From Actinomycetota bacterium (GTDB lineage: Bacteria; Actinomycetota; Acidimicrobiia; Acidimicrobiales; CADCTF01), in the NCBI GenBank assembly GCA_019348305.1, contig JAHWJQ010000070.1, forward strand, positions 1 to 9,831: a stretch of 9,831 nucleotides of DNA, written 5' to 3'. Shown one piece after another: positions 161-9,416 of the stretch (its first letter is position 1; each line of letters opens with the position of its first letter). Both the position numbers and the translations under genes were made by a program. Under the pieces are notes generated by a model. The model was not told the origin of the DNA and searched no databases. It saw only the letters and a list, made by a program, of their open reading frames with translations.

Positions 161-341
161 CCGCTGCTGCTCGGACGCTGCGGGGTCGGCACCTCGGGTA
201 CGGCGTTGACCCTTCGCCCTCGCAGGCGTGTCGACGACCCCGACGGGCGACGCCAGCGCGAAGAAGCGATCGGTGCTCCCAGGCCGCGACGGCGACCCAT
301 CGGCCGCCGCTGCTCGGAGCCGCCATGATCGGCACCTCGGG
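161..341. repeat. diverged direct repeat pair, 38 bases each
   Basis: Positions 161-198 and 304-341 align without gaps over 38 bases with 30 identities. The last 13 bases (TCGGCACCTCGGG, 186-198 and 329-341) are identical. The copies are offset by 143 bases. They may be an old duplication or part of a regulatory region. In GC-rich DNA some similarity is expected by chance, so confidence is modest. Confidence 0.35.
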
Positions 342-517
342 GCGGCCTCGCCGGGGGTGGACCGCGCGTTCTGTCCGCCCCTTCGGTGCGGCCCGGCTGC
401 CAACGGGCGTACTGGAACCGTCCATCTGGTCGTTCGCGATCTTTGATCCGAGGGTCGGCGGACGGCAGTCACCGACGGCATCACCTCCAAACCGGCGGCC
501 TGCCGTTCGTCGTCTCC

Positions 518-530
518 ACCAAGGTTTGGT
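518..530. promoter_or_regulatory. candidate operator-like palindrome upstream of the Ubl gene
   Basis: ACCAA (518-522), GGT, TTGGT (526-530) form five-base perfect arms about 55 bases before the Ubl start codon. This is a reasonable place for an operator bound by the operon's own HTH protein. There is no direct evidence, and a 5+5 palindrome can occur by chance. Confidence 0.2.
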
Positions 531-574
531 CTTACGGCCCCCGTCCCCCCGGACGACGAATAGATGAGACCCTG

Positions 575-580
575 AGGAGG
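575..580 (+). promoter_or_regulatory. Shine-Dalgarno of the Ubl gene
   Basis: AGGAGG lies four bases before the ATG at 585. Together with the HTH gene this is one of the two strongest ribosome binding sites that precede genes in the operon. It fixes the start of the Ubl protein. Confidence 0.75.
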
Positions 581-584
581 GCAC

Positions 585-875
585 ATGCCGAACGACCACA
601 AGAACAAGCGCGACATCACCGTAACCGTCCGAACGCCCGCTGGCCTCGGCGACGAGTTCGAGCTCAAGGACCACGACCGCGTCGACAAGACGACCAAGAC
701 CGCTGTCGACCACTTCGTCGCCAAGAACCAATTGGCGCCTGGCAACTATGGCCTCGCCCTCGTCCGCGACGGCGTCGCCAAGGACCTCAACGCCGCCGGC
801 CGCCTCGACGACTACGACATCGTTGACGGCGACGTCCTCCAGTTGTTCCCGAAGGACGCCCAGGTCGACGGCTGA
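585..875 (+). CDS. ubiquitin-like protein (beta-grasp Ubl) of a bacterial conjugation system
   Basis: This 96-residue protein is the likely modifier of the system. After a short basic/polar N-terminus (1-10), ITVTVRTPAG begins a beta-grasp domain. A helix-like stretch around TAVDHFVAKNQL (40-50) follows, then the strand-turn pattern NYGLALVRDGVAKDL (54-68) and the typical late segment RLDDYDIVDGDVLQLFPK (73-90), as in ubiquitin/YukD-like folds. It ends in QVDG, so the C-terminal residue is already a glycine and no trimming is needed before E1 activation. It has one Ubl domain, whereas the ISG15-like BilA has two. The strong AGGAGG box supports the start. Its TGA overlaps the ATG of the E2 gene by one base (TGATG). 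The Ubl call rests on fold pattern, terminal Gly and the E2-JAB-E1 neighbours. Small YukD/EsaB-like proteins are the alternative, but no type VII secretion genes are seen here. Confidence 0.85.
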   Translation: MPNDHKNKRDITVTVRTPAGLGDEFELKDHDRVDKTTKTAVDHFVAKNQLAPGNYGLALVRDGVAKDLNAAGRLDDYDIVDGDVLQLFPKDAQVDG

Positions 876-1264
876 TGCTGCACCCCGCCGTCCTCGCCGA
901 ACTGCTCGACGCGGAGATCGCCGCCGCCGTTGAGCAGTTCGGCCGGCCGATCACCCGCGACGGCCACCTCATCTACGGCCCCGTCCGTGACGACGTCGAA
1001 CTCCGCCTCGACGCCGGAAGATACGACGCTGAGCCCATGGCCGTCGACGTCACGACGGGCGACGGGGCGCCGCTCCCGCCGACGAACTGGCCGGGCACCC
1101 TGTTCCACAGCATCCACCCCGTCCACGGGCGGCCCTTCGTCTGCATCCGCGGGACTTTCGAGTACCACACCCACCCGTCGCACCTCGCCGACCGGTGGGA
1201 CCTGTACCGGGGGCGGCTGCAGCTGACCGACCTCCTCGGCCATCTGTACGCCATAGCCGGCTGA
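875..1264 (+). CDS. E2-like ubiquitin-conjugating enzyme
   Basis: This 129-residue protein, smaller than a typical ~150-residue UBC domain, would accept the Ubl from E1 on a cysteine and pass it to targets. Its core reads LFHSIHPVHGRPFVCIRG (76-93). H81-P82 fits the HPN motif, with Val in place of Asn, and C90 falls where eukaryotic E2s carry the catalytic Cys a few residues downstream. The protein has only this one cysteine. After it come HTHPSHLADRWDLYRGR (98-114), with His/Trp/Arg residues like those in predicted prokaryotic E2 families, and a C-terminal helix. The ATG overlaps the Ubl stop (TGATG), implying coupled translation; GAAGGA at 851-856 is too distant for a standard ribosome site. 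A 29-base gap separates it from the JAB gene. Assignment depends partly on context, since bacterial E2s are very divergent. Confidence 0.78.
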   Translation: MLHPAVLAELLDAEIAAAVEQFGRPITRDGHLIYGPVRDDVELRLDAGRYDAEPMAVDVTTGDGAPLPPTNWPGTLFHSIHPVHGRPFVCIRGTFEYHTHPSHLADRWDLYRGRLQLTDLLGHLYAIAG

Positions 1265-1293
1265 CCGCACCTCCGCTGAAGAACGGACCTCTC

Positions 1294-1767
1294 ATGACCG
1301 TCCCGCCGAGAACGCCTCCCACGCCGCTGACCGTCCCGCTCGCCGTCCTCGACGAAGCCCGCCGGTTCTTCGAGGACTGCGGGTCACGTGGCTGCGAGGG
1401 AACCGCGATGATCGCGGCGTCGCTCACTGCGATCCGCCTCGTCATCCCCCACCAGCACGCGACGCCCGCCCCGTACTGCTCGGTCGAAGTGACCTTGCAA
1501 GGCAAGCTAGAACTCGCCGGCGGGCTCCGATCCGGCGAGACCTACGTGTCGCGCATCCATTCGCATCCCGAGCTGCCGTTCCATTCGCCGACTGATGACA
1601 GGAACCCGGCGCTCACTCACGAGGGAGCGCTCAGCATCGTCGTACCGTTCTTCGGACTTGGCCTTCGCCAAGGCTTCTCCTGCTGCGCCGTCTACGTCCG
1701 TCAAGGCCACGAGTGGATCGAGCTGCCTGCCGGGTCGGGACGTGACCGCTTCGTCGTCGCCCGATGA
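1294..1767 (+). CDS. JAMM/JAB metallopeptidase (predicted Ubl deconjugase)
   Basis: This 157-residue zinc peptidase would cleave the Ubl from targets or mature a precursor. The JAMM signature is complete: an upstream Glu in CEGTAM (E35), then HSHPELPFHSPTD with H89, H91, S98 and D101, matching the HxH...SxxD pattern. The fold continues through ALSIVVPFF (112-120) and AVYVR strands typical of JAB domains. I chose ATG 1294. The frame is also open from a GTG at 1195, but that would overlap most of the E2 C-terminus and add a Pro/Arg-rich stretch that looks like E2 read out of frame. The ribosome site is weak (GAAG around 1278). The 3' end overlaps the E1 start as ATGA. Since the Ubl already ends in Gly, deconjugation is more likely than precursor processing. 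Confidence 0.88.
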   Translation: MTVPPRTPPTPLTVPLAVLDEARRFFEDCGSRGCEGTAMIAASLTAIRLVIPHQHATPAPYCSVEVTLQGKLELAGGLRSGETYVSRIHSHPELPFHSPTDDRNPALTHEGALSIVVPFFGLGLRQGFSCCAVYVRQGHEWIELPAGSGRDRFVVAR

Positions 1768-3278
1768 GCGACCCTCGCTTCGAGCTCGCGTCCCGTCTCG
1801 TCGGCGCCGGCGTCCAGCAGTGCCGTGAGGCCCTTGAGGCGGTCCGGCCTGTCGTCCGTGTCGGACCACGCATTTCCCCGGCGGCCGGGTTCGCCGCTGC
1901 CGCCTTGGTGCACATGCTCGCCCGGCTCCACCCGCACACCACATTGGAAGGCAACGCAGAGCTGGCGCACAACCCTTGGAATGCGGCGGACGTCGCTGCC
2001 GCCTGCGACGACGCCCACCTCCCTCGTATTGACGCAACGACCGCGGCGGCACAGGACATCGTGTTCTCGGTCGGCGCGGACGGGCCGGCGGACTGGTGGG
2101 TCGGCGGCGGCGACTGGAACGTGACCCTCACGGCAGAACCCGCCCCGATCGAGGCTCTCACCACAGGTCTCGGCCTCCACGCCGCTGCCTGCTTCGCGGC
2201 TGCCGAAGCGTTCAAGGCCGCGTTGGGGCCCCTCGGGTTTGCGTACGTCACCGTTGGACCAGCTCTCACCTGGAACCTGCTCGACCACCAGCACCGAACT
2301 GTCGACGAACCGGGCGGCACGTTCTCGGCGCCCCCGCCCATCTGGTGGTTCGGTGCCGGATCGGTTGGCTCGAGCAGCACTGCGCTCGCCCTGGCGCTGC
2401 CAATCGCCGGCCATGCCCACATCATCGACCCCGACGCGTTCGACCCAGCGAGGAACCCCTACCGGTACCCGGCGAGCACACCTTCCGTCACGGGACCGAA
2501 GGTGCTGTGGCTCGAGAAGATGCTCCGCGATGCCGGCTGGGTGGCCACCGGCCACGCCGGCACGGTTGCCGACTTCGTCGTCAGCCGCGACCATCCCGGC
2601 CACCGCGGGATTGTCGTTTCCTCCGTCGACCGCACCGACGCGCGCGCCGACGTCGCCGACGCCCTCGCCGCAACCACCTTCTCAGCCGGCGTCGCCGGCC
2701 TCGCCCTACACACCCAACGCGAACACCCGGACGACGACGCTGCCTGCCCGTACTGCCAGTTCCTCGCTGTCGGTTCTCCGGTGACGCAAATGCAGGTCTA
2801 CGCCGACGTCACGGGCCTGCCGCTCCCTCGGATCGCCCGCCTCCTCGCCGGTGACCGCCTGACGGGCGACGACCTGGCGGCGGCGTGCGCCGCCGGAAGG
2901 ATCCCAGCCAGCGACGCAGCCGCCTTCGTCGACCGCCGCCTCGAGGACCTGGTCCGCAACGCCTACGCCCAAGCCCAAATGACGGTCGACGACTCCGACG
3001 TCCTCGTCTCTGCACCATTCGTCTCCTGGGCGGCGGGGACCCTGCTCACCTCCGAACTGGCGAAGGCCGCACTCGGCATCCCCCTCGTCGACCGTCGCGT
3101 CGATCTGGATCTCAGCGGCCGCCCGACCGGCGCAGTCCGGCGCATCGGTCGCGACAACACCGGCCGCTGTCTGTGCGCCTCCCCGTTCCGCCGACGACAC
3201 GCGCGTCGCCTCTACGGTGAGGAGAACAAGATGATCCGAAGAATGTCTTACCCCCACCCGTCCCTACACGACGAGTAG
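1764..3278 (+). CDS. E1-like ThiF-family Ubl-activating enzyme with an extra N-terminal half
   Basis: This 504-residue protein would adenylate the Ubl C-terminal glycine and pass it to E2. The active ThiF/MoeB-type domain starts near 193: nucleotide loop FGAGSVG (196-202), acidic pair in IIDPDAFD (D222, D224), NPYR (N231, R234), GPK (K246) and VSSVDRTDAR (285-294) match the E1 adenylation core. CPYC (328-331) and CLC (469-471) probably form one split zinc site. C375 lies between them and is a candidate catalytic Cys. The first ~185 residues have no glycine loop but show GLGLHAAACFAAAEAFK (135-151), a pattern seen in ThiF-like halves, so the protein may be a pseudo-E1/E1 fusion. This resembles the inactive/active halves of eukaryotic E1s, but that is inference. 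The start overlaps the JAB stop (ATGA). The last 15 codons carry an unusual internal ribosome site (see 3219-3278). Confidence 0.88.
   Translation: MSDPRFELASRLVGAGVQQCREALEAVRPVVRVGPRISPAAGFAAAALVHMLARLHPHTTLEGNAELAHNPWNAADVAAACDDAHLPRIDATTAAAQDIVFSVGADGPADWWVGGGDWNVTLTAEPAPIEALTTGLGLHAAACFAAAEAFKAALGPLGFAYVTVGPALTWNLLDHQHRTVDEPGGTFSAPPPIWWFGAGSVGSSSTALALALPIAGHAHIIDPDAFDPARNPYRYPASTPSVTGPKVLWLEKMLRDAGWVATGHAGTVADFVVSRDHPGHRGIVVSSVDRTDARADVADALAATTFSAGVAGLALHTQREHPDDDAACPYCQFLAVGSPVTQMQVYADVTGLPLPRIARLLAGDRLTGDDLAAACAAGRIPASDAAAFVDRRLEDLVRNAYAQAQMTVDDSDVLVSAPFVSWAAGTLLTSELAKAALGIPLVDRRVDLDLSGRPTGAVRRIGRDNTGRCLCASPFRRRHARRLYGEENKMIRRMSYPHPSLHDE
3219..3278 (+). promoter_or_regulatory. internal ribosome site and 15-codon in-frame reading frame at the E1 tail
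   Basis: GAGGAG (3219-3224) sits six bases before ATG 3231, an ideal Shine-Dalgarno geometry. That ATG is in frame with E1, so ribosomes starting there would make only a 15-residue peptide and stop at 3278, four bases before the sigma GTG at 3283. The sigma gene has no ribosome site of its own, so this may load ribosomes for re-initiation at the sigma start. The sequence shows the site; the coupling role is inferred. Confidence 0.4.
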
Positions 3279-3282
3279 TTGA

Positions 3283-3852
3283 GTGGGACCTCCCAACCAC
3301 GCTGCGCTGCTCCAAGGCGTCCAATCCGGGAAACCGGACTACGACGCCATCTGGCGCGCCTACTACTCGCAGCTCGTGAAGGCGGCCTCGAGGATCAACA
3401 AGCGCATCGCTGAGGACGCCGTGCAACAGGCGTGGCTGGAAGTGCTCGAACGAGGACTCTTGAACGCATCGACAACAAACGTGCCCGCCCTGCTGACGAC
3501 GGTTGTCGTGCGCCGGGCGATCGACTTGGCGCGCAAGGACCGACGACTCGAACCGACCGACACCGTGATCGATGAGCCGGACGAGTTGGCGGCCGACGGG
3601 TTCACGAGGGCCGAGCGGGTGATCGCCGCGGAGGAAGTGCTCGCTGCATCGTGGGATCAACGTCAAATCTTCAACAGAAATGAGGACCAGGTGTTCCAGT
3701 ACAGGTATTGCTCTAACCACACCCAAACGGAAACCGGTTCGGCGCTGAACTTGACCAGGGAGCGGATCTCCCAGATCGAAGCCGACGTCGTCAAGAAGCT
3801 TCGAGCGAAGTTGCGAGTCGACCGTGACATTCCACCCCCGACCCAGAGCTAG
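3283..3852 (+). CDS. ECF-like RNA polymerase sigma factor
   Basis: This 189-residue protein has the two-domain layout of small sigma-70 family factors. Region 2 spans about 22-90: AYYSQLVKAASR, then IAEDAVQQAWLEVLERG, as in the conserved 'D.vQ..wl.v' helix, then VVRRAIDLARKDRR. Region 4 spans about 112-178 with the helix-turn-helix QTETGSALNLTRERISQIEA (147-166), which would contact the -35 element. It begins with GTG four bases after the E1 stop and has no good Shine-Dalgarno, so translation is probably coupled to E1. The stretch around 3660-3740 is more AT-rich, with AGA and AAT codons unlike the neighbours. No classical anti-sigma gene is visible, but the next gene is 12 bases away and could serve that role. 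It may direct transcription of this operon or be a repurposed DNA-binding protein. Confidence 0.82.
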   Translation: MGPPNHAALLQGVQSGKPDYDAIWRAYYSQLVKAASRINKRIAEDAVQQAWLEVLERGLLNASTTNVPALLTTVVVRRAIDLARKDRRLEPTDTVIDEPDELAADGFTRAERVIAAEEVLAASWDQRQIFNRNEDQVFQYRYCSNHTQTETGSALNLTRERISQIEADVVKKLRAKLRVDRDIPPPTQS

Positions 3853-3854
3853 AG

Positions 3855-3860
3855 AGGAGG
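3855..3860 (+). promoter_or_regulatory. Shine-Dalgarno of the HTH gene
   Basis: AGGAGG lies four bases before ATG 3865, directly after the sigma stop codon. It has the same layout as the Ubl ribosome site (GAGGAGG, four bases, ATG) and fixes the start of the HTH protein. Confidence 0.75.
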
Positions 3861-3864
3861 ACAG

Positions 3865-5049
3865 ATGGACCAGACCAACGACCGGGACGCCGAGATCGCC
3901 CAGACGATCATCGACTTCCTGGCCGCCAGCCGGGCAGGAGAGCCGTTCGCGTTCGACGACCTCGACGCGGACCTCCGCGCCGAAGTCGAGGAACTGCTCC
4001 CGATCGTGCTGGGAGCGGTGCACTCCGCTCCGTACCCGAGCGAGGACGATGAATTCAAGGGCTGGGACACGAGCGGCGCCGACGCCGACGCTGCCGCAGC
4101 CCGACTCGGGTTCAGCCCCCGAGAGGGCAACAGGCGCCTCCTCGGCGCGCGCCTCCGGGAGCTTCGCGTTCGCTCTGGTCGCTCGGCCCGAGACGTCGCG
4201 CGCGAGGTGTCGGCGACCGGAGCCACGGTGGTCGACTCCGACATCGCCGCCTTCGAGAACGAGACGATCGCGCACGTCCCGGCCAGCGTGGCGGCGGCGC
4301 TGATCGACCTGCTCGGTCCGAGCATCGCCTACGGAACCGATGATGCGCCGGGCCGTACGGTGCCCACCGTCGCCGGCTCGGGCGCGGCGGACGCCCCCGC
4401 CCTAACCGCCATCGTGCTCTGGATTCGCCCCGACGCAGACGTCACGATCGTTGAGGCAGGCAACTGGGCTCCGTTACCAGTCGACCAGGAGCTGAACGTC
4501 AACCTCCTCGGTCTCGAGACTCACCTGCTCGTGTGCACCACCGTCGCGGACGCCGAGTCCCTCGCCGAACCAGCCGTCCACGTCGCAGCGCGCCTCTTCG
4601 ACCGCCAGCCCCAGCTCAACGCCGTCTTCGTTGTCGCCGGCGACGACGGCCACTCGACCGTCACGCTCGAACCAGCCGACGTCCGCACGACCCTGCGGAC
4701 GAAGGGCCCCGCCCGGCCGCCCGGCCGCACGCACCCGATCCTCGACTTCGAGGACGCACTGCGACGATTTTTCGAGGCGTTCCTGCCGAACTGGTCGCAG
4801 CTCGACCTAAGCCACCTCACGGCGGATCCTGCGCCGATCGATGACGTGATCGCCAGCGCGACGCGACGCGCAGTCGCCCGCACGAAGATGGCGCGGGCGC
4901 AGATCCCCGCGAAACAGGACGCGCTCGCCACCATCTCCGATGCCGATGCGGTCGCCCTCGCCGACCTTCTAGCGGCCGTCCACGCCGGTACCGTGCCGAC
5001 CGGCCGAGCGGTGCAGGACCGAATCGGCACCCTCGTCGGTGCTCCGTGA
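3865..5049 (+). CDS. XRE-like helix-turn-helix protein with an unknown C-terminal domain
   Basis: This 394-residue protein has three visible parts. Residues 1-55 form an acidic helical region (IIDFLAASRAGEPFAFDDL, then EVEELLPIVL), reminiscent of the short N-terminal regions of sigma-linked or kinase-linked regulators in other bacteria. Residues 90-155 contain an XRE/Cro-type HTH pattern: LLGARLRELRVRSGRSARDV, then SDIAAFENE and a closing helix. Residues about 170-394 form a mixed domain I do not recognise. It includes ALTAIVLWIRPDADVTIVEA and DFEDALRRFFEAFLPNW, and has no HExxH, so it is not an ImmA/IrrE-type peptidase. It has a strong ribosome site and its TGA overlaps the GTG of the ATPase gene (GTGA). 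Plausible roles are repressor of the operon, anti-sigma-like partner of the preceding factor, or adaptor for the ATPase. The HTH call is moderate and the rest is unknown. Confidence 0.7.
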   Translation: MDQTNDRDAEIAQTIIDFLAASRAGEPFAFDDLDADLRAEVEELLPIVLGAVHSAPYPSEDDEFKGWDTSGADADAAAARLGFSPREGNRRLLGARLRELRVRSGRSARDVAREVSATGATVVDSDIAAFENETIAHVPASVAAALIDLLGPSIAYGTDDAPGRTVPTVAGSGAADAPALTAIVLWIRPDADVTIVEAGNWAPLPVDQELNVNLLGLETHLLVCTTVADAESLAEPAVHVAARLFDRQPQLNAVFVVAGDDGHSTVTLEPADVRTTLRTKGPARPPGRTHPILDFEDALRRFFEAFLPNWSQLDLSHLTADPAPIDDVIASATRRAVARTKMARAQIPAKQDALATISDADAVALADLLAAVHAGTVPTGRAVQDRIGTLVGAP

Positions 5050-6815
5050 TCCGCCTCCTCCGCCTTGAGGGCTGGAAAGGGTTCTCAAGCCTCGAGCTGG
5101 CCCTAGATGACGGGGCCACCTTCATCGTCGCCCGAAACGGGATCGGCAAGACGTCGTTCGTCCAAGCGACCGCATGGGTCCTCTTCGGCGCAAGAACGAA
5201 AGTCGATCCGGCGTTGGCGCTCCGCCGCGGTCATTCGTCGTCGCAGGTCGAGGTGACCCTCGGCCCGCCCGGCGGCGACCAACGAACCATCCGGCGGACG
5301 ATTACACCGAAGAAAAGGGGTGCGGGCGTCAACGTCGACGTATTCATTGACGGTTCCGTCGCCGACGATGACGCCGCGGAGGCACTTGTGCGGGACATGT
5401 TCGGTGCGAGCTCGGACGATCTCGCCCGACTGGCCGTTCTCCCCGCAGGCTCCCTACACGACTATGACGCCGAGAAGCTGCATCTTCGCCGCTACCTGTG
5501 CAGCCTGTACGGGATCGACAAGATCGAAGGCGCTCTATCGGCTCTGCATGACGAGCGCCGCTCCACCGCAGCGGCGATCAAAAGGGTTCGGGCAGCAGCA
5601 CGCATGGACGCGTCGGAGGTCTCGGCTGCCGCGTCGGCGGTCGACGAGCTCGTCGAGGCCATCGCGGTGACGACCGAGACGCTGGAAGCAGTCCAGCAAG
5701 GCCACCAGCAACTTCAGGACCGCCTCGCTGCGGTCGACCGCTTCGAAGCCGCACAAGTGCGGCTCGCTGCGCACCTCGAGACAGTGCGATCGGTTGCGCA
5801 GCGAGCGGCCGATCTCGTCGGCGCTCCCGTCAGCGCAGACATGATCGCCGAGGAGCTCGAGGAGCTGCTTGCGTCAGCCGACAGTGCGTTGGACGAGATC
5901 AGCCGGGAGACGGCCCGCCACCAAGCGCGCCGGGATCTCGCGGTCGAACTGCTCGCCCAGTTGTCGGACGCCGACAGTGACTGTCCGGTCTGTCGGCGGC
6001 CCCTAGACGAAGATCACCGCGAAGTCGCCGAGTCCAGCCACCGCCGCGACATCACGGCGGCAGACGAAGCTATCACCGCCGTGGAGGAGAGCCGCCGCCG
6101 CCAGGTCGAGCTTCGGGCGGCGCTGCGGGCACTGCAACAGGAGCTTCGCGACCAGCCGGAGCTGCCGCCGGACCCAGGGGTAGGAGTGGGAGAGGCCCGT
6201 AGCGCCGCCAGTGCAGCATCGGCACGGATCGCCGAGCTCGCCGGGGAGCTTGGCGAGCTGCGGCAACGGATGGCACAGCAGTCCGCGATTCTCGAGGCGG
6301 CCGCTGAAGCTCAGGACGCCCACAGGAAGGCCGTCTCGTTATATCGGCGGGAGCTGCTGGTCGGTGCAGCGATCGACAGCGCGCAGGAAGTGCTGTCAAC
6401 ACTGTTGGCGCAGCGGATCGATCCGCTCTCCGACGAGATTGCCGACCGGTGGAAGAAGGTGTTCGCGGGTGGCAGGGGCGGGGTGCAGGTGACCTCAGAT
6501 GGAGAAATTGTCCTGAACCGAGGTGGCTCTCCACTGTCCTTCACGGAGATGTCGGCCGGCGAGAGAAGCGTGGCGTTGATCACGACGCGACTGTTGGCGC
6601 TGGCGGCTTTGAATCGTCGGTGCTTCGCGATTCTTGACGAGCCGCTGGAGCAGCTCGACCCCGCAAATCGTCGGATCGTTGCGTTGCTGTTGGCGCGAGC
6701 GCCGTCGCCGGCGGTTCCTCAGATCATTGCGACGACATTCGAGGAGCAATTAGCGAGGCGGCTGGAGGCGAAGGCTCCGAACGTTCACTTAGAGTTCATT
6801 GCCGCCGACGACTGA
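5046..6815 (+). CDS. short Rad50/SbcC-like SMC-family ATPase with zinc hook
   Basis: This 589-residue protein has the split ABC-ATPase layout of Rad50/SMC proteins. The N-terminal lobe begins IRLLRLEGWKGFSSLEL with Walker A ARNGIGKTS (29-37). Two predicted coiled-coil arms (about 165-305 and 325-440) flank a zinc hook CPVCRRPLDEDH (C313, C316), through which Rad50 proteins dimerise. The C-terminal lobe holds the ABC signature EMSAGERS (501-508), Walker B CFAILDEP (526-533; D531, E532) and a D-loop LEQLDP (534-539). In the H-loop region (IIATTFEE, 560-567) the usual His is replaced. With arms of ~130 residues it is far shorter than SbcC (about 1000 residues). No Mre11/SbcD nuclease gene accompanies it in the window. 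GTG 5046 overlaps the preceding stop, which implies coupling. It is probably a DNA-end or phage-structure sensor or effector of the system; the specific role is inference. Confidence 0.85.
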   Translation: MIRLLRLEGWKGFSSLELALDDGATFIVARNGIGKTSFVQATAWVLFGARTKVDPALALRRGHSSSQVEVTLGPPGGDQRTIRRTITPKKRGAGVNVDVFIDGSVADDDAAEALVRDMFGASSDDLARLAVLPAGSLHDYDAEKLHLRRYLCSLYGIDKIEGALSALHDERRSTAAAIKRVRAAARMDASEVSAAASAVDELVEAIAVTTETLEAVQQGHQQLQDRLAAVDRFEAAQVRLAAHLETVRSVAQRAADLVGAPVSADMIAEELEELLASADSALDEISRETARHQARRDLAVELLAQLSDADSDCPVCRRPLDEDHREVAESSHRRDITAADEAITAVEESRRRQVELRAALRALQQELRDQPELPPDPGVGVGEARSAASAASARIAELAGELGELRQRMAQQSAILEAAAEAQDAHRKAVSLYRRELLVGAAIDSAQEVLSTLLAQRIDPLSDEIADRWKKVFAGGRGGVQVTSDGEIVLNRGGSPLSFTEMSAGERSVALITTRLLALAALNRRCFAILDEPLEQLDPANRRIVALLLARAPSPAVPQIIATTFEEQLARRLEAKAPNVHLEFIAADD

Positions 6816-6819
6816 CGGA

Positions 6820-6832
6820 TTGACCTGGTCAA
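6820..6832. promoter_or_regulatory. palindrome TTGACC-T-GGTCAA after the operon
   Basis: Perfect six-base arms around one central base begin five bases after the ATPase stop codon. It could be a small operator or a short hairpin at the end of the operon. There is no T tract, so it is not a standard Rho-independent terminator. Confidence 0.3.
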
Positions 6833-7031
6833 CGCCGTCGGATTGTGAAGCTCTCGGTCGGAGTTCGAGCACCCTGACCTGGGGACTGGTCGTGGGGTTT
6901 GTGGTCTCGCAGCGACGGCGAGAAGATCGCTCGCTCCCCGCACGTAATCGGCGATCTGGACGCCCTCTGCGGGTCCGTCCCGACTCTGCAACAGAACGCA
7001 CGGCCCATCAAGCAACTGACCGCGCACCTAC

Positions 7032-7076
7032 TGCCGGCTCGCCGGCGGGCGAGCCGAGCGCGAACGGATGATCGGC
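7032..7076. repeat. 45-base interspersed repeat, copy A
   Basis: TGCCGGCTCGC (7032-7042), a 14-base spacer, then AGCGCGAACGGATGATCGGC (7057-7076). Copy B at 9500-9544 has the same 11 bases, the same spacer length and 19 of the 20 final bases. The conserved blocks flank a hairpin core that varies between copies, as in REP-type elements. Confidence 0.45.
7035..7056. repeat. perfect 9-bp hairpin, tetraloop
   Basis: CGGCTCGCC (7035-7043), GGCG, GGCGAGCCG (7048-7056) form a perfect stem with a four-base loop. There is no following T run. It lies inside the first copy of the 45-base repeat, so it may be a REP-like extragenic palindrome rather than a terminator. Confidence 0.45.
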
Positions 7077-7224
7077 GCGCTGGTCCGCTCCTCGGCATGG
7101 ACCCAGCACCGGTCGGCCCGGCCCGGGCGAGCGGCACGTCGGTGCTAAATGGGGAGAGAGCCCGGATCCGCCTGTCGTCGGCAGATTGAGTCACTGCGGG
7201 CACTTCTTCCGTCATCATTGCACT

Positions 7225-7518
7225 GTGCCTACGAGTGCTCTCGACCGCGTGAGGAGCGACCTGGCCGAAGGCCGGCTGTGGAAGGCACGTGATCGAGTGC
7301 CGCGGACTCTCCTCGAGCGTCCGACCGACCCCGTACTGCATGGACTTGCTGTTTAGGTGTTCTTTCAGATGGGACTTGCCGCGCGCAGGCGCGTACTGGT
7401 TCCGCACCTCGGCCCGGAAGGCGCAGAGCGGGAGTGGGGTCCCCTTGCATTGCTGGGCCGACGGTTACGAACTCTTGGCATGGAGCTGTTGACCGCCGAC
7501 GCAGGTCACGTCTCCTGA
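7225..7518 (+). pseudogene. decayed DUF6584-like gene
   Basis: From GTG 7225 the frame reads ALDRVRSDLAEGRLWKARDR and then LLERPTDPVLHGLAV, as I recall the start of DUF6584 proteins. TAG at 7354-7356 then interrupts it where a Glu codon would be expected. The frame continues VFFQMG. The expected DLPRAGAYWF segment is found in another frame beginning at GAC 7373, as if one base were lost near 7372. A return shift around 7410-7440 restores the first frame (AEREWGPLALLG), which ends at TGA 7516-7518. One nonsense change and two compensating shifts indicate a recent pseudogene or sequencing errors. Its end lies two bases before the membrane gene at 7521, so the two were probably co-transcribed. 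The family has no established function that I know of. The name is from memory of family motifs; the decay is visible in the sequence. Confidence 0.6.
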
Positions 7519-7520
7519 CC

Positions 7521-8276
7521 ATGGCGTGGGTCCCTCCTGAATCGTCGCCGGGCCTTCTCCGCCTGGGGTGGGCGCTGCTTTCGGCGCGTCGGTGGCAGTG
7601 GCTTGCCCTGACGCATTTGGGTCTGGCCGTCGTCCTGATCATGTACTTCCTGATGGTGCTGGCCAACAGCGCGGGGTTCTCCTACAGCTTCTGGAACGAG
7701 CCGGCGCCAAACGATGCGGCTGACCAGTTCGCCGTGCTGTCGTTGCTTGCACTGGCAATCTCGGTCGTGCTCGTCGGATACGTGGTGTACGGCGCTTTCT
7801 GCGTCATGTTCCTCGACGCCCGCCGTGGCGGGACCAGTTCGACGTTTACGGTCCTCCGGCGGTCTTTAGGCCCGGCCCTACGTGCGTGGTGGTGGGGCCC
7901 GTTGCTCTTTCTGGCCGCCGCCGCATCGGTGGTCATGGTCTTGCCGGCGATCGCGGTTGTCCCTTTGCTAGCCCCTGTGCCGTTCAGCGCCATCCTCGCC
8001 AGAGACTCGCTGCCCGGAGGCTTCCTCGGGTATGTGCGGTCGCTTTACCAGCGACTCTTGCCGGCCGGCATCATTACGGCGATCGGAGGGTTCACCGTCT
8101 TCCAAGGCTTCACGTGGTCGTTCGCCTTGGCAGATCGCTTTGATGGGCTCGTCGAGCTACTGGTGCTCCCCATCAGCTGGGTTTGCTACCTGATCCTGTC
8201 GCTCTCCGCGGCCCTCGCCGCCGCCTGCGTCGCCGTACTGCTGGCAGAAGGCCCGCAGCGAGGTCTCGCAGGTTGA
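7521..8276 (+). CDS. polytopic membrane protein of unknown function
   Basis: This 251-residue, mostly hydrophobic protein has about six membrane segments (roughly 28-50, 70-98, 123-142, 143-160, 180-203 and 208-242). They are separated by short charged loops such as FLDARRGG (97-104) and YVRSLYQR (171-178). The layout resembles actinobacterial uncharacterised membrane proteins and, loosely, the membrane domain of some glycerophosphodiesterases, but no catalytic motif is visible. I chose ATG 7521. The frame is open upstream to 7434, but that part overlaps the decayed gene and is Arg-rich without a membrane signature. No strong ribosome site is seen. It lies two bases behind the pseudogene, converges with the next membrane gene, and shows no link to the conjugation operon. 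Confidence 0.7.
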   Translation: MAWVPPESSPGLLRLGWALLSARRWQWLALTHLGLAVVLIMYFLMVLANSAGFSYSFWNEPAPNDAADQFAVLSLLALAISVVLVGYVVYGAFCVMFLDARRGGTSSTFTVLRRSLGPALRAWWWGPLLFLAAAASVVMVLPAIAVVPLLAPVPFSAILARDSLPGGFLGYVRSLYQRLLPAGIITAIGGFTVFQGFTWSFALADRFDGLVELLVLPISWVCYLILSLSAALAAACVAVLLAEGPQRGLAG

Positions 8277-8344: not shown

Positions 8345-8998
8345 TCAACGCTGCCTTCGGAAGTACGCCAATACTCCGATGCCAATGTTCAACACGGCGA
8401 ACGACGCAATGACGACGGCGTTCAGTAGAGCACCTTGGGCAAGCTGCCATCCGGCGAAGCCGATGATCACGAGGCCGAACCCGACGATCGCCACCAAGGA
8501 GAGCACCAGCTTCCTCCGGCTCCACGGATCGGCGAGGGCAGAGTGGTCGAGAGGTCGCTGCCTGGCCTCGACCCTTCGGCCACTTCTTGTCCCGACGAGG
8601 ACGATGGTGAAGAGGGCGAGCCAAAGGACCAGTGCCCAGAGGCCTCCAGGCTCCTCGGCGATCATGAAGCCGATCAGGGGTAGGAGCGCGCCGAGACACC
8701 CGGCGGCGTAAACGTACGCCTGTCCTGGGCCACTGACGTCGACGGCCTGGGGCCCCCTGACGACGAGCACGGCGGCGCCGACGCCGAAGCCGAATGCTGC
8801 AACAGCTGCGGGTAGGCGCCAAGACCACGGATACTCATCCTCGTACACGCCGCCCAACAGGACCGTGCCCAGCACGACGCAAGCCACGGCGATGGCGAGG
8901 ACGACGGCGAACCCGGAGATGGCGACAGCGGTGGCGACGTGCCCCGAGTAACCGTGGTTCCCCGCAGATCGCCGCCAAGGGTGGATTAGGTCACGCAC
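8345..8998 (-). CDS. polytopic membrane protein of unknown function
   Basis: Read on the minus strand from GTG 8998, this gives 217 residues ending at TGA (8345-8347). After a basic N-terminus (RDLIHPWRRSAGNHGYSGHV), about six hydrophobic segments follow: AVAISGFAVVLAIAVACVVL, AAVAAFGFGVGAAVLVV, AAGCLGALLPLIGF, ALVLWLALFTIVLVG, LVLSLVAIVGFGLVIIGFAGW and AVVIASFAVLNIGIGVLAYF. It ends in the basic tail FRRQR. A basic cytoplasmic loop (RSGRRVEARQRP) separates the fourth and fifth segments. The frame is open up to 9178, but that extension is polar and Arg-rich and would overlap the next gene. The GTG choice is uncertain, with no clear ribosome site. No family is recognised. Confidence 0.65.
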   Translation of the reverse strand: MRDLIHPWRRSAGNHGYSGHVATAVAISGFAVVLAIAVACVVLGTVLLGGVYEDEYPWSWRLPAAVAAFGFGVGAAVLVVRGPQAVDVSGPGQAYVYAAGCLGALLPLIGFMIAEEPGGLWALVLWLALFTIVLVGTRSGRRVEARQRPLDHSALADPWSRRKLVLSLVAIVGFGLVIIGFAGWQLAQGALLNAVVIASFAVLNIGIGVLAYFRRQR

Positions 8999-9167
8999 GC
9001 ACCGCCCATGGTGGCATGGCTCAAACTGACCCGGACGCAGGGTTGAGAGTCTCAGTGAATTCCGTGTCGACCGGCTACCAGGAAGAGACGAACTAGCCTC
9101 CAGGTCGCCGTCCCATGCGATGCGAGTGCGATGCGTGTCTGCTTGTCGAATCGGGTAGCAGCCGACC
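8999..9167. promoter_or_regulatory. divergent intergenic region with an 11-base-period repeat
   Basis: This region separates the minus-strand membrane gene from the small plus-strand gene and should contain both promoters; none can be assigned with confidence. The nine-base sequence TGCGATGCG occurs at 9116-9124 and 9127-9135, one helical turn apart and about 32 bases before GTG 9168. That is compatible with a protein-binding site, though it may simply be a small tandem duplication. Confidence 0.3.
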
Positions 9168-9416
9168 GTGGCCCGCAACGAGAGCTCATGGTGGCGGGAC
9201 TGGCGGCAGCTGCCGCCCGGGTCTCGAGATCCGAACAGCCTTATGTCGCCGGGCGAGGTCTGGCTTGTAAGAGCGGGCCTTCTATTGTTTCTGGTGGCCG
9301 GCGTTGTGGTGATTCTCTTGGCGGGAAACCTGACCGCAGGGCTACTTCTCTTGCTGCCGCTTGGCGGCTACCGCCAACTACCCGCTCATCAGCGACGTCA
9401 GGTCCTCGGCCGATAG
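9168..9416 (+). CDS. small two-helix membrane protein
   Basis: This gene encodes 82 residues from GTG 9168. A polar, Trp-rich N-terminus (SSWWRDWRQLPPGSRDP) precedes two adjacent hydrophobic segments, about 32-52 (WLVRAGLLLFLVAGVVVILL) and 53-68 (AGNLTAGLLLLLPLGG). It closes with the basic tail AHQRRQVLGR. The hydrophobic pattern with flanking charges supports a real protein more than an accidental frame. The ribosome site is weak. It is divergent from the larger membrane gene. No function or family is recognised. Confidence 0.5.
   Translation: MARNESSWWRDWRQLPPGSRDPNSLMSPGEVWLVRAGLLLFLVAGVVVILLAGNLTAGLLLLLPLGGYRQLPAHQRRQVLGR

Follow-up and report, generated by a model that had tools for sequence, protein, structure and literature searches.

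The described systems closest to the operon considered here include: (i) Bil, where BilA has two consecutive ubiquitin-like (Ubl) domains and is carried by Cys417 of BilD, and where the CEHH motif of BilB is formed by Cys138, Glu144, His146 and His151 (available portion of PMC11354881), (ii) the multiubiquitin operons of Iyer 2006, which comprise polyUbl, an RWD-like E2 and JAB-E1 (row 6e; excerpts of PMC1779556), and (iii) the Bub operons, of which 219/544 adjoin CapW or CapH+CapP (excerpts of PMC13373217). The controllers of immune operons described in those same excerpts are proteases, WYL proteins and a kinase; CapP is activated by single-stranded DNA, cleaves the repressor CapH and regulates neighbouring immune operons, and CapK+CapS lies near Bil too. 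LmuB of Lamassu is small, often carries a zinc hook and is a likely sensor, with the Walker B Glu generally replaced by Gln (available portion of PMC10586767). The operon itself lies on contig JAHWJQ010000070.1 of an Actinomycetota bacterium (Acidimicrobiia; GCA_019348305.1), of which the whole stretch analysed, 9,831 nucleotides, is termed the window. Its seven genes encode a Bil-like cassette (Ubl, E2, JAB, E1) followed by a sigma factor, a helix-turn-helix (HTH) partner protein and a Rad50-like ATPase. The favoured reading, at a probability of about 55%, is that of a diverged Bil-related operon under its own exchangeable transcriptional controller, in which the ATPase would sense DNA and the partner would release the sigma factor.

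Relatives of the operon and the exchanged putative sensor gene

The seven co-directional genes fill positions 585-6815 of the forward strand in tight packing according to the open reading frame (ORF) list, and the spacing after the E1 gene is as the initial annotation gave it, with 4 bases to the sigma factor, 12 to the HTH protein and then a 4-base overlap into the ATPase. Relatives of the cassette were collected in one scan of a genome collection, for which a closer sequence set was used, the first E1 alignment being too diverse. The ten relatives (loci L001-L010) are from Acidimicrobiia, Rhodococcus, Allobranchiibius, Pseudonocardia, Kribbella and others, and all ten have E2-JAB-E1, with the Ubl readable in nine (L008 begins at E2). 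In 9/10, genes for a sigma factor, an HTH protein and an M78 protease come directly after E1 (the M78 gene of L002 is cut by the contig end). The Kribbella locus L010 carries a divergent upstream set composed of g117, the sigma-like g317 (1.1e-61), a ZPART-like partner (9.7e-13) and M78 (Pfam, 3.3e-8), such that 10/10 relatives combine the cassette with a sigma (or sigma-like) factor, a partner of HTH/anti-sigma-like type and an M78 protease. The proteases keep HExxH in all eight of the Bil-type members checked (L002 and L010 were outside this check) and in the protease of plasmid locus L018, have many invariant C-terminal cysteines, and are covered by an M78 profile that matches IrrE (4.8e-18) and CapP (3.1e-4).

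The Rad50-like ATPase is found at the locus in 0/10 cassette relatives. Among the ten genomes of these relatives, it is encoded elsewhere in G001 and G002, where it adjoins another Ubl cassette (Multi_ubiq and DUF6791/ThiF, with DUF6527), and a weak match of 89 residues occurs in G007. With M78 as the sensor-type protein of all ten relatives, the ATPase of the window thus stands in the place of the protease. The initial annotation had suggested that the last three genes form one system with the cassette and proposed a search for the seven families in the same order. The first view is borne out in part, as a sigma factor, a partner and a sensor-like gene accompany all ten relatives and the sigma-partner-ATPase trio lies beside other Ubl cassettes, but the exact seven-gene order is seen in the window only.

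E1 proteins of the window type are present in 1/395 Acidimicrobiia genomes in a separate scan and were not found in the viral contigs and plasmids searched. In a midpoint-rooted E1 tree, the window is nested among protease-type loci. That the protease type is ancestral is only suggested by this placement, since the 14 nearest proteins come without gene context. Upstream of the Ubl gene, an inverted-repeat block (CGGATTCCG, GACTACTAGTC, found by eye) is conserved amid diverged sequence in L003 (L003:7560-7812) and L005 (L005:7554-7806) and may be a promoter or operator. A shared ECF promoter was considered and rejected, as this block, the conserved one upstream, occurs in these two loci alone, which are too few.

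The ATPase family and its neighbourhoods

The window ATPase (5046..6815, +), proposed as the sensor, is a compact Rad50-like zinc-hook protein with Pfam matches to SMC_N (3.4e-15) and Rad50_zn_hook (6.6e-6), a Walker A motif GIGKT at residue 32, a hook CPVC at 313 and a signature SAGER at 503. Its family retains the Walker B Glu and the hook CxxC in 33/33 members and matches PDB Rad50 at 5.6e-19. Searches with the family profile (A3) covered 395 Acidimicrobiia (9 matches), 394 Actinomycetes (3) and 396 Actinomycetota (10, of which one had been counted before), for a sample of 21 distinct ATPase genomes; some of the matchless genomes recur across the three samples. Ubl genes adjoin the ATPase in 11/21 (L016, L036-L040, L046, L048, L064, L065 and L068), of which L048 has an ATPase without its start and L064 a weak multiubiquitin gene (Pfam 0.053; local profile 5e-18). 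Two further genomes (L041 and L042) cannot be scored for Ubl neighbours, the contig ending inside the ATPase. Genes for a sigma or sigma-like factor and a partner precede the ATPase in 18/21, the exceptions being L047, with the partner only, and L048 and L068, with neither (the L068 contig ends there).

Outside these samples, the ATPase is beside Ubl genes in G002 (L015), in the M. avium plasmid pP7a (L017) and in the window, and overall the trio occurs beside four cassette types; no family member was found in the phages searched. In pP7a, the row is Ubl, E2, JAB-E1, sigma, hypothetical and ATPase. A DEAD/DEAH helicase and TnsA-like/Mu-like transposition genes come after this trio (L017:8949-15830). 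Among the 395 Acidimicrobiia, the ATPase is present in 9 genomes, the multiubiquitin-type E1 in 5 and both in 3, at one locus. Three shared genomes would be expected by chance at P = 8e-5, a value for co-presence alone that ignores kinship, and the adjacency of the two genes makes the association stronger than this value. The other two multiubiquitin E1 loci of Acidimicrobiia are L076, with HTH and M78 genes, and L077, which is cut by the contig end.

The pP7a E1 is matched by 97 plasmid records, of which nine loci were viewed (L017-L025). One has the ATPase trio (L017, the starting locus) and one has sigma, HTH and M78 genes (L018). A divergent gene of the HigA family is located upstream of the plasmid multiubiquitin operon in L019, L021 and L024, with an adjoining RelE/ParE gene in L019 and L021, and an annotated ImmA/IrrE gene takes the upstream position instead in L020, L022 and L023. 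In a tree of 16 ATPase sequences, the multiubiquitin-linked members form three separate groups (two nodes have low support, 0.47 and 0.69), which suggests that ATPases were repeatedly re-paired with multiubiquitin cassettes.

The sigma factor and its partner

The window sigma factor (3283..3852, +) is of the ECF type, has an equivalent position in 9/10 relatives, and matches Sigma70_r4 above the Pfam cutoff (7.4e-11) and region 2 at 4.3e-5 (23.6 bits vs a cutoff of 24). A sigma-70 promoter scan of window positions 300-7300 gave no hit. The partner (3865..5049, +), proposed to act as an anti-sigma factor or repressor, includes HTH_31 at residues 93-151 (Pfam, 1.4e-6). The initial name of XRE-like protein is incomplete, as the protein also has a 240-residue C-terminal domain (~155-394) that is common to ATPase-type partners. 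Residues 1-153 (helical domain and HTH) match the protease-type partners (hhalign, 1e-9).

Homology between these partners emerged only with wider alignments. A BLAST comparison of the window and L011 partners gave nothing convincing, and shallow profiles gave E-values of 0.01-0.46, not clearly above controls, whereas hhalign of the wider alignments (A7 vs A8; zinc-finger type ZPART) gives 7.4e-8 over 186 columns. The later alignments exclude P0128, a homolog whose second half diverges from the rest of the family. A partner profile built from window-type sequences alone matches L037 (8e-7) and L038 (4e-12). The protease-linked ZPART-like partner of Kribbella aligns at profile positions 9-157 only, without the C-terminal domain. 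These domain matches indicate that the N-terminal half goes with the type of sigma factor and the C-terminal half with the type of sensor. The ZPART N-terminus resembles the anti-sigma zinc finger zf-HC2 in L035 (4.7e-4) and L036 (3.1e-4).

All four combinations of sigma type and sensor type are found: SIG with ATPase (window, L017, L037-L040, L046, L064, L065 and others), SIG with M78 (L001-L009, L018), g317 with ATPase (L015, L016, L035, L036, L041, L042) and g317 with M78 (L010). Certain matches are by construction, since the partner profile was built with L017, L037, L038 and L039, the sigma profile (A6) with 15 loci, the later g317 profile with L015, L016, L035, L036, L041 and L042, and the ZPART profile with five of those six; L039/L040 likewise built their own E1, E2 and Ubl profiles. 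Independent matches to both partner and sigma factor are provided by L046, L060-L066 and L069. When built from L015/L016 or L011/L012 only, the g317 profile finds L035 (2e-117), L036 (4e-85), L042 (2e-64) and L041 (9e-63), and the partner profile finds L035 (4e-92), L036 (4e-50) and L041 (6e-11), leaving L042 unmatched. The small g117 gene lies before g317 in L010 (L010:7149-7517) and L015 (L015:7179-7532), with faint PemK/MazF similarity in L010 (0.025). After E1, L010 has an AAA ATPase (1.9e-30) and a subtilase (2.2e-14; L010:11015-14360).

The conjugation cassette as a diverged Bil relative

The Ubl (585..875, +), at the BilA-like position, has 96 residues, which is room for a single domain, and ends in QVDG; its only Pfam match is YukD (0.028), and it has no PADLOC match. 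The C-terminal DG is shared with 8/9 relatives in which the Ubl is readable. The L007 Ubl (L007:7564-7899) apparently extends 10 residues beyond VDG, a tail that may be trimmed by the JAB peptidase. The E2-like protein (875..1264, +) is matched in Pfam by Metal_CEHH only (1.3e-5); its AlphaFold2 (AF2) model, based on an alignment of 11 sequences, has a predicted local distance difference test score (pLDDT) of 93.6. Against PDB chains, Foldseek gives BilB (8tz0_C, 2.1e-4, TM 0.65) as the sole match at E<=0.001 and 8tyz_C as the next (2.2e-3), and the E2 profile finds BilB around the active-site Cys at a modest 2.7e-4. The CEHH spacing of BilB is matched by C90, E96, H98 and H103 of the window, with C90 and H103 conserved in 11/11 members of the E2 set, E96 in 7/11 and H98 in 6/11. 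A mere metal-binding protein, as Metal_CEHH would imply, is rejected on the basis of the fold, profile and motif, all of which point to BilB. The third gene (1294..1767, +) encodes a BilC-like JAB/JAMM isopeptidase (PADLOC BilC 3e-7; JAMM motif HSHP..SPTD; Prok-JAB 0.001, under the Pfam cutoff).

The BilD-like E1 (1764..3278, +) has no ThiF/E1 Pfam match as a single protein, but the profile of its family (A1, 53 E1s) matches the solved BilD 8tyz_A at 4.6e-41 over positions 20-490, nearly full length. BilD Cys417 faces Ala402 of the window, as counted by hand along the profile alignment, and the position is Ala in 51 of the 53 E1s, Gly in 2 and Cys in none, adjacent to a Tyr that is invariant (53/53). 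Four cysteines arranged as CxxC and CxC (328/331 and 469/471 in the window) are kept in 53/53 and look like zinc ligands. Between the two motifs, 38/53 E1s have no Cys and the window E1 has one. With the equivalent of Cys417 lost, this E1 family may hand the Ubl-adenylate straight to E2, and its existence raises the question of how the Ubl reaches E2. Full Bil membership is rejected because the Ubl is single and E1 lacks the catalytic cysteine; on sequence comparison, the cassette is a diverged Bil relative, filed outside Bil proper.

Support for the gene calls is drawn from homologs, as a codon model trained on the seven genes recovers those seven and is circular. The HTH protein and the ATPase have full-length homologs (97, 87 and 59% and 98, 85 and 68% identity, respectively), which exclude chance ORFs; one close homolog of the HTH protein carries the label Actinomycetota. 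From about 8,000 candidates scored, homologs at E<=1e-3 number 126 for E1, 5 for the HTH protein and 58 for the ATPase (5 close at 68-98%, most others 31-36% identical). Thus, the E1 family is wide, and the pairing of this particular HTH protein with this ATPase forms a small branch. Two ORFs past the operon, 7434-8276 (+) and 8345-9178 (-), have no Pfam domain that passes the cutoff.

Proposed mechanism and alternatives

The ATPase at the position of the protease would most simply do the same job, that is, sense DNA, relieve the partner and free the sigma factor. In this mechanism, the sigma factor is predicted to drive the tagging operon and to be held by the N-terminal half of the partner, which in the window may also bind DNA via its HTH, and the sensor is proposed to dock on the C-terminal half. 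Cleavage of the partner would be the task of the IrrE/CapP-like M78 protease in the genome relatives. When infection or damage occurs, the Rad50-like ATPase of the window would instead bind to DNA ends or to an abnormal structure in DNA, and its ATP-driven conformational cycle would release the sigma factor from the partner. The DNA- or structure-sensing role suggested by the initial annotation is retained as a predicted function. Tagging of phage or host proteins by the Ubl would follow, in what may be a defence response, with the activated Ubl probably passing directly from E1 to the E2 cysteine.

Several points weigh against this reading, whose support is sequence and gene context. The ATPase-type Bil-like locus is known from the window contig alone, though its proteins have close homologs. 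In 8/21 ATPase genomes (L035, L047, L060-L063, L066/67, L069/70), no Ubl cassette is seen by the ATPase, the view at L047, L061, L066/67 and L069/70 being limited by contig ends; L060-L063 form one syntenic lineage in which the trio is intact, its neighbours are conserved and a recognised Ubl cassette is absent. Local profiles find no sigma factor or partner in 7/9 viewed plasmid multiubiquitin loci. The initial annotation had named a trio found apart from the cassette, and Ubl loci lacking the last genes, as observations that would count against a single system, and both are in part observed. On the regulatory side, zf-HC2 scores are under the Pfam cutoff (0.25-0.29 in L015 and L010), the L041/L042 partners are without the zf-HC2 cysteines, g317 is sigma-like in region 4 only (hhalign 2.8e-5, FliA 0.004) with no Pfam match, the AF2 model of the partner is poor (pLDDT 48), and no promoter motif common to the loci was found. 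The trio of L060-L063 is possibly a stand-alone regulator, and a trio standing alone fits a self-contained one.

An alternative judged improbable is that the ATPase and partner form a working sensor-effector complex of the Lamassu/Rad50 type, in which Ubl tagging would serve as co-effector or cleanup and the sigma factor only for co-expression. The best defence profiles for the ATPase are mad3 (1.6e-17) and LmuB (1.7e-16), nearly full length in PADLOC, and LmuB itself is described as a small protein, often with a zinc hook, and a likely sensor (available portion of PMC10586767). However, LmuA and LmuC are absent among the matches listed for the seven proteins (best 25 of 49 for the ATPase), the invariant Walker B Glu differs from LmuB generally, a regulatory-type M78 holds the ATPase slot in every cassette relative, and sigma and partner genes precede most ATPases of the sample. 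Identity with Lamassu is rejected on these grounds.

Less probable again is that the trio is itself the target of tagging, with the Ubl conjugated by the cassette to the ATPase or the partner as a priming or releasing step. Type II CBASS, in which Cap2 acts on the CD-NTase, is a model for such a relationship, and one trio kept by different Ubl cassettes is expected of a shared substrate; yet the trio also occurs without a recognised cassette, and the ATPase, as a substrate, is missing from protease-type loci. Loose, functionally unlinked neighbours in a defence island are strongly disfavoured, as the plasmid location of some Ubl-linked loci and the cassette-free ATPases and sigma- and partner-free plasmid loci noted above are set against overlapping genes, the sigma, partner and M78 genes of all Bil-like relatives, a trio beside four cassette types and an ordered protease/ATPase swap.

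If the favoured reading of a Bil-related operon under a DNA-sensing controller is true, bacterial Ubl tagging would start only in response to trouble with the DNA. The occurrence of the trio beside several tagging systems suggests a new damage- or infection-sensing switch. The broader proposal, of a new controller class in which a DNA-sensing Rad50-like ATPase gates an anti-sigma factor, is swappable with IrrE/CapP-like proteases and serves at least four kinds of Ubl cassette, one with an E1 that lacks the catalytic cysteine, is tentative and held at a little under even odds. A Rad50-type ATPase that gates a sigma factor would, as far as is known, be the first. In the literature searched, no paper was found that links the sigma-partner-ATPase trio to Ubl genes, and this novelty is provisional.

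Comparison with described systems

The window cassette and Bil (8TYZ/8TZ0) are alike in Ubl-E2-JAB-E1 order, E1 homology, E2 fold with CEHH spacing and a BilC-like JAB; the window differs in its single Ubl, the lack of Cys417, and the added sigma, partner and sensor genes, and the text of PMC11354881 has no mention of a sigma factor or ATPase. The cassettes of pP7a, L036-L038, L046 and L065 look, by gene content, like the multiubiquitin operons of Iyer 2006; however, the multiubiquitin section of PMC1779556, as excerpted, includes none of the sigma factor, the partner or the ATPase, and the text of that paper makes no mention of a sigma factor, helix-turn-helix, ABC ATPase or SMC. With regard to type II CBASS, no CD-NTase is among the matches listed for the seven proteins (Pfam; PADLOC, best 25 of 49 for the ATPase). 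Similarly, no Mre11/SbcD nuclease, the partner in SbcCD/Mre11-Rad50, is detected by Pfam among the nine window proteins. Lamassu LmuB and Rad50 are compact zinc-hook ABC ATPases like that of the window, whose family differs from LmuB in general by keeping the Walker B Glu.

CapK+CapS, a kinase with a STAS-wHTH repressor, is a DNA-damage-responsive controller by Ubl immune operons, for which the excerpts of PMC13373217 describe no sigma factor or such ATPase. CapH+CapP is like the protease-type relatives in having an HTH protein and an M78 protease beside a Ubl operon. By contrast, the relatives include a sigma factor, a partner with an extra N-terminal domain, and proteases with invariant C-terminal cysteines. 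The window has no M78 protease among its nine proteins (Pfam) and a Rad50-like ATPase where the protease would be. The exchange of these two at a single position, as it occurs in nature, provides a ready-made comparison of two putative sensors with one output.

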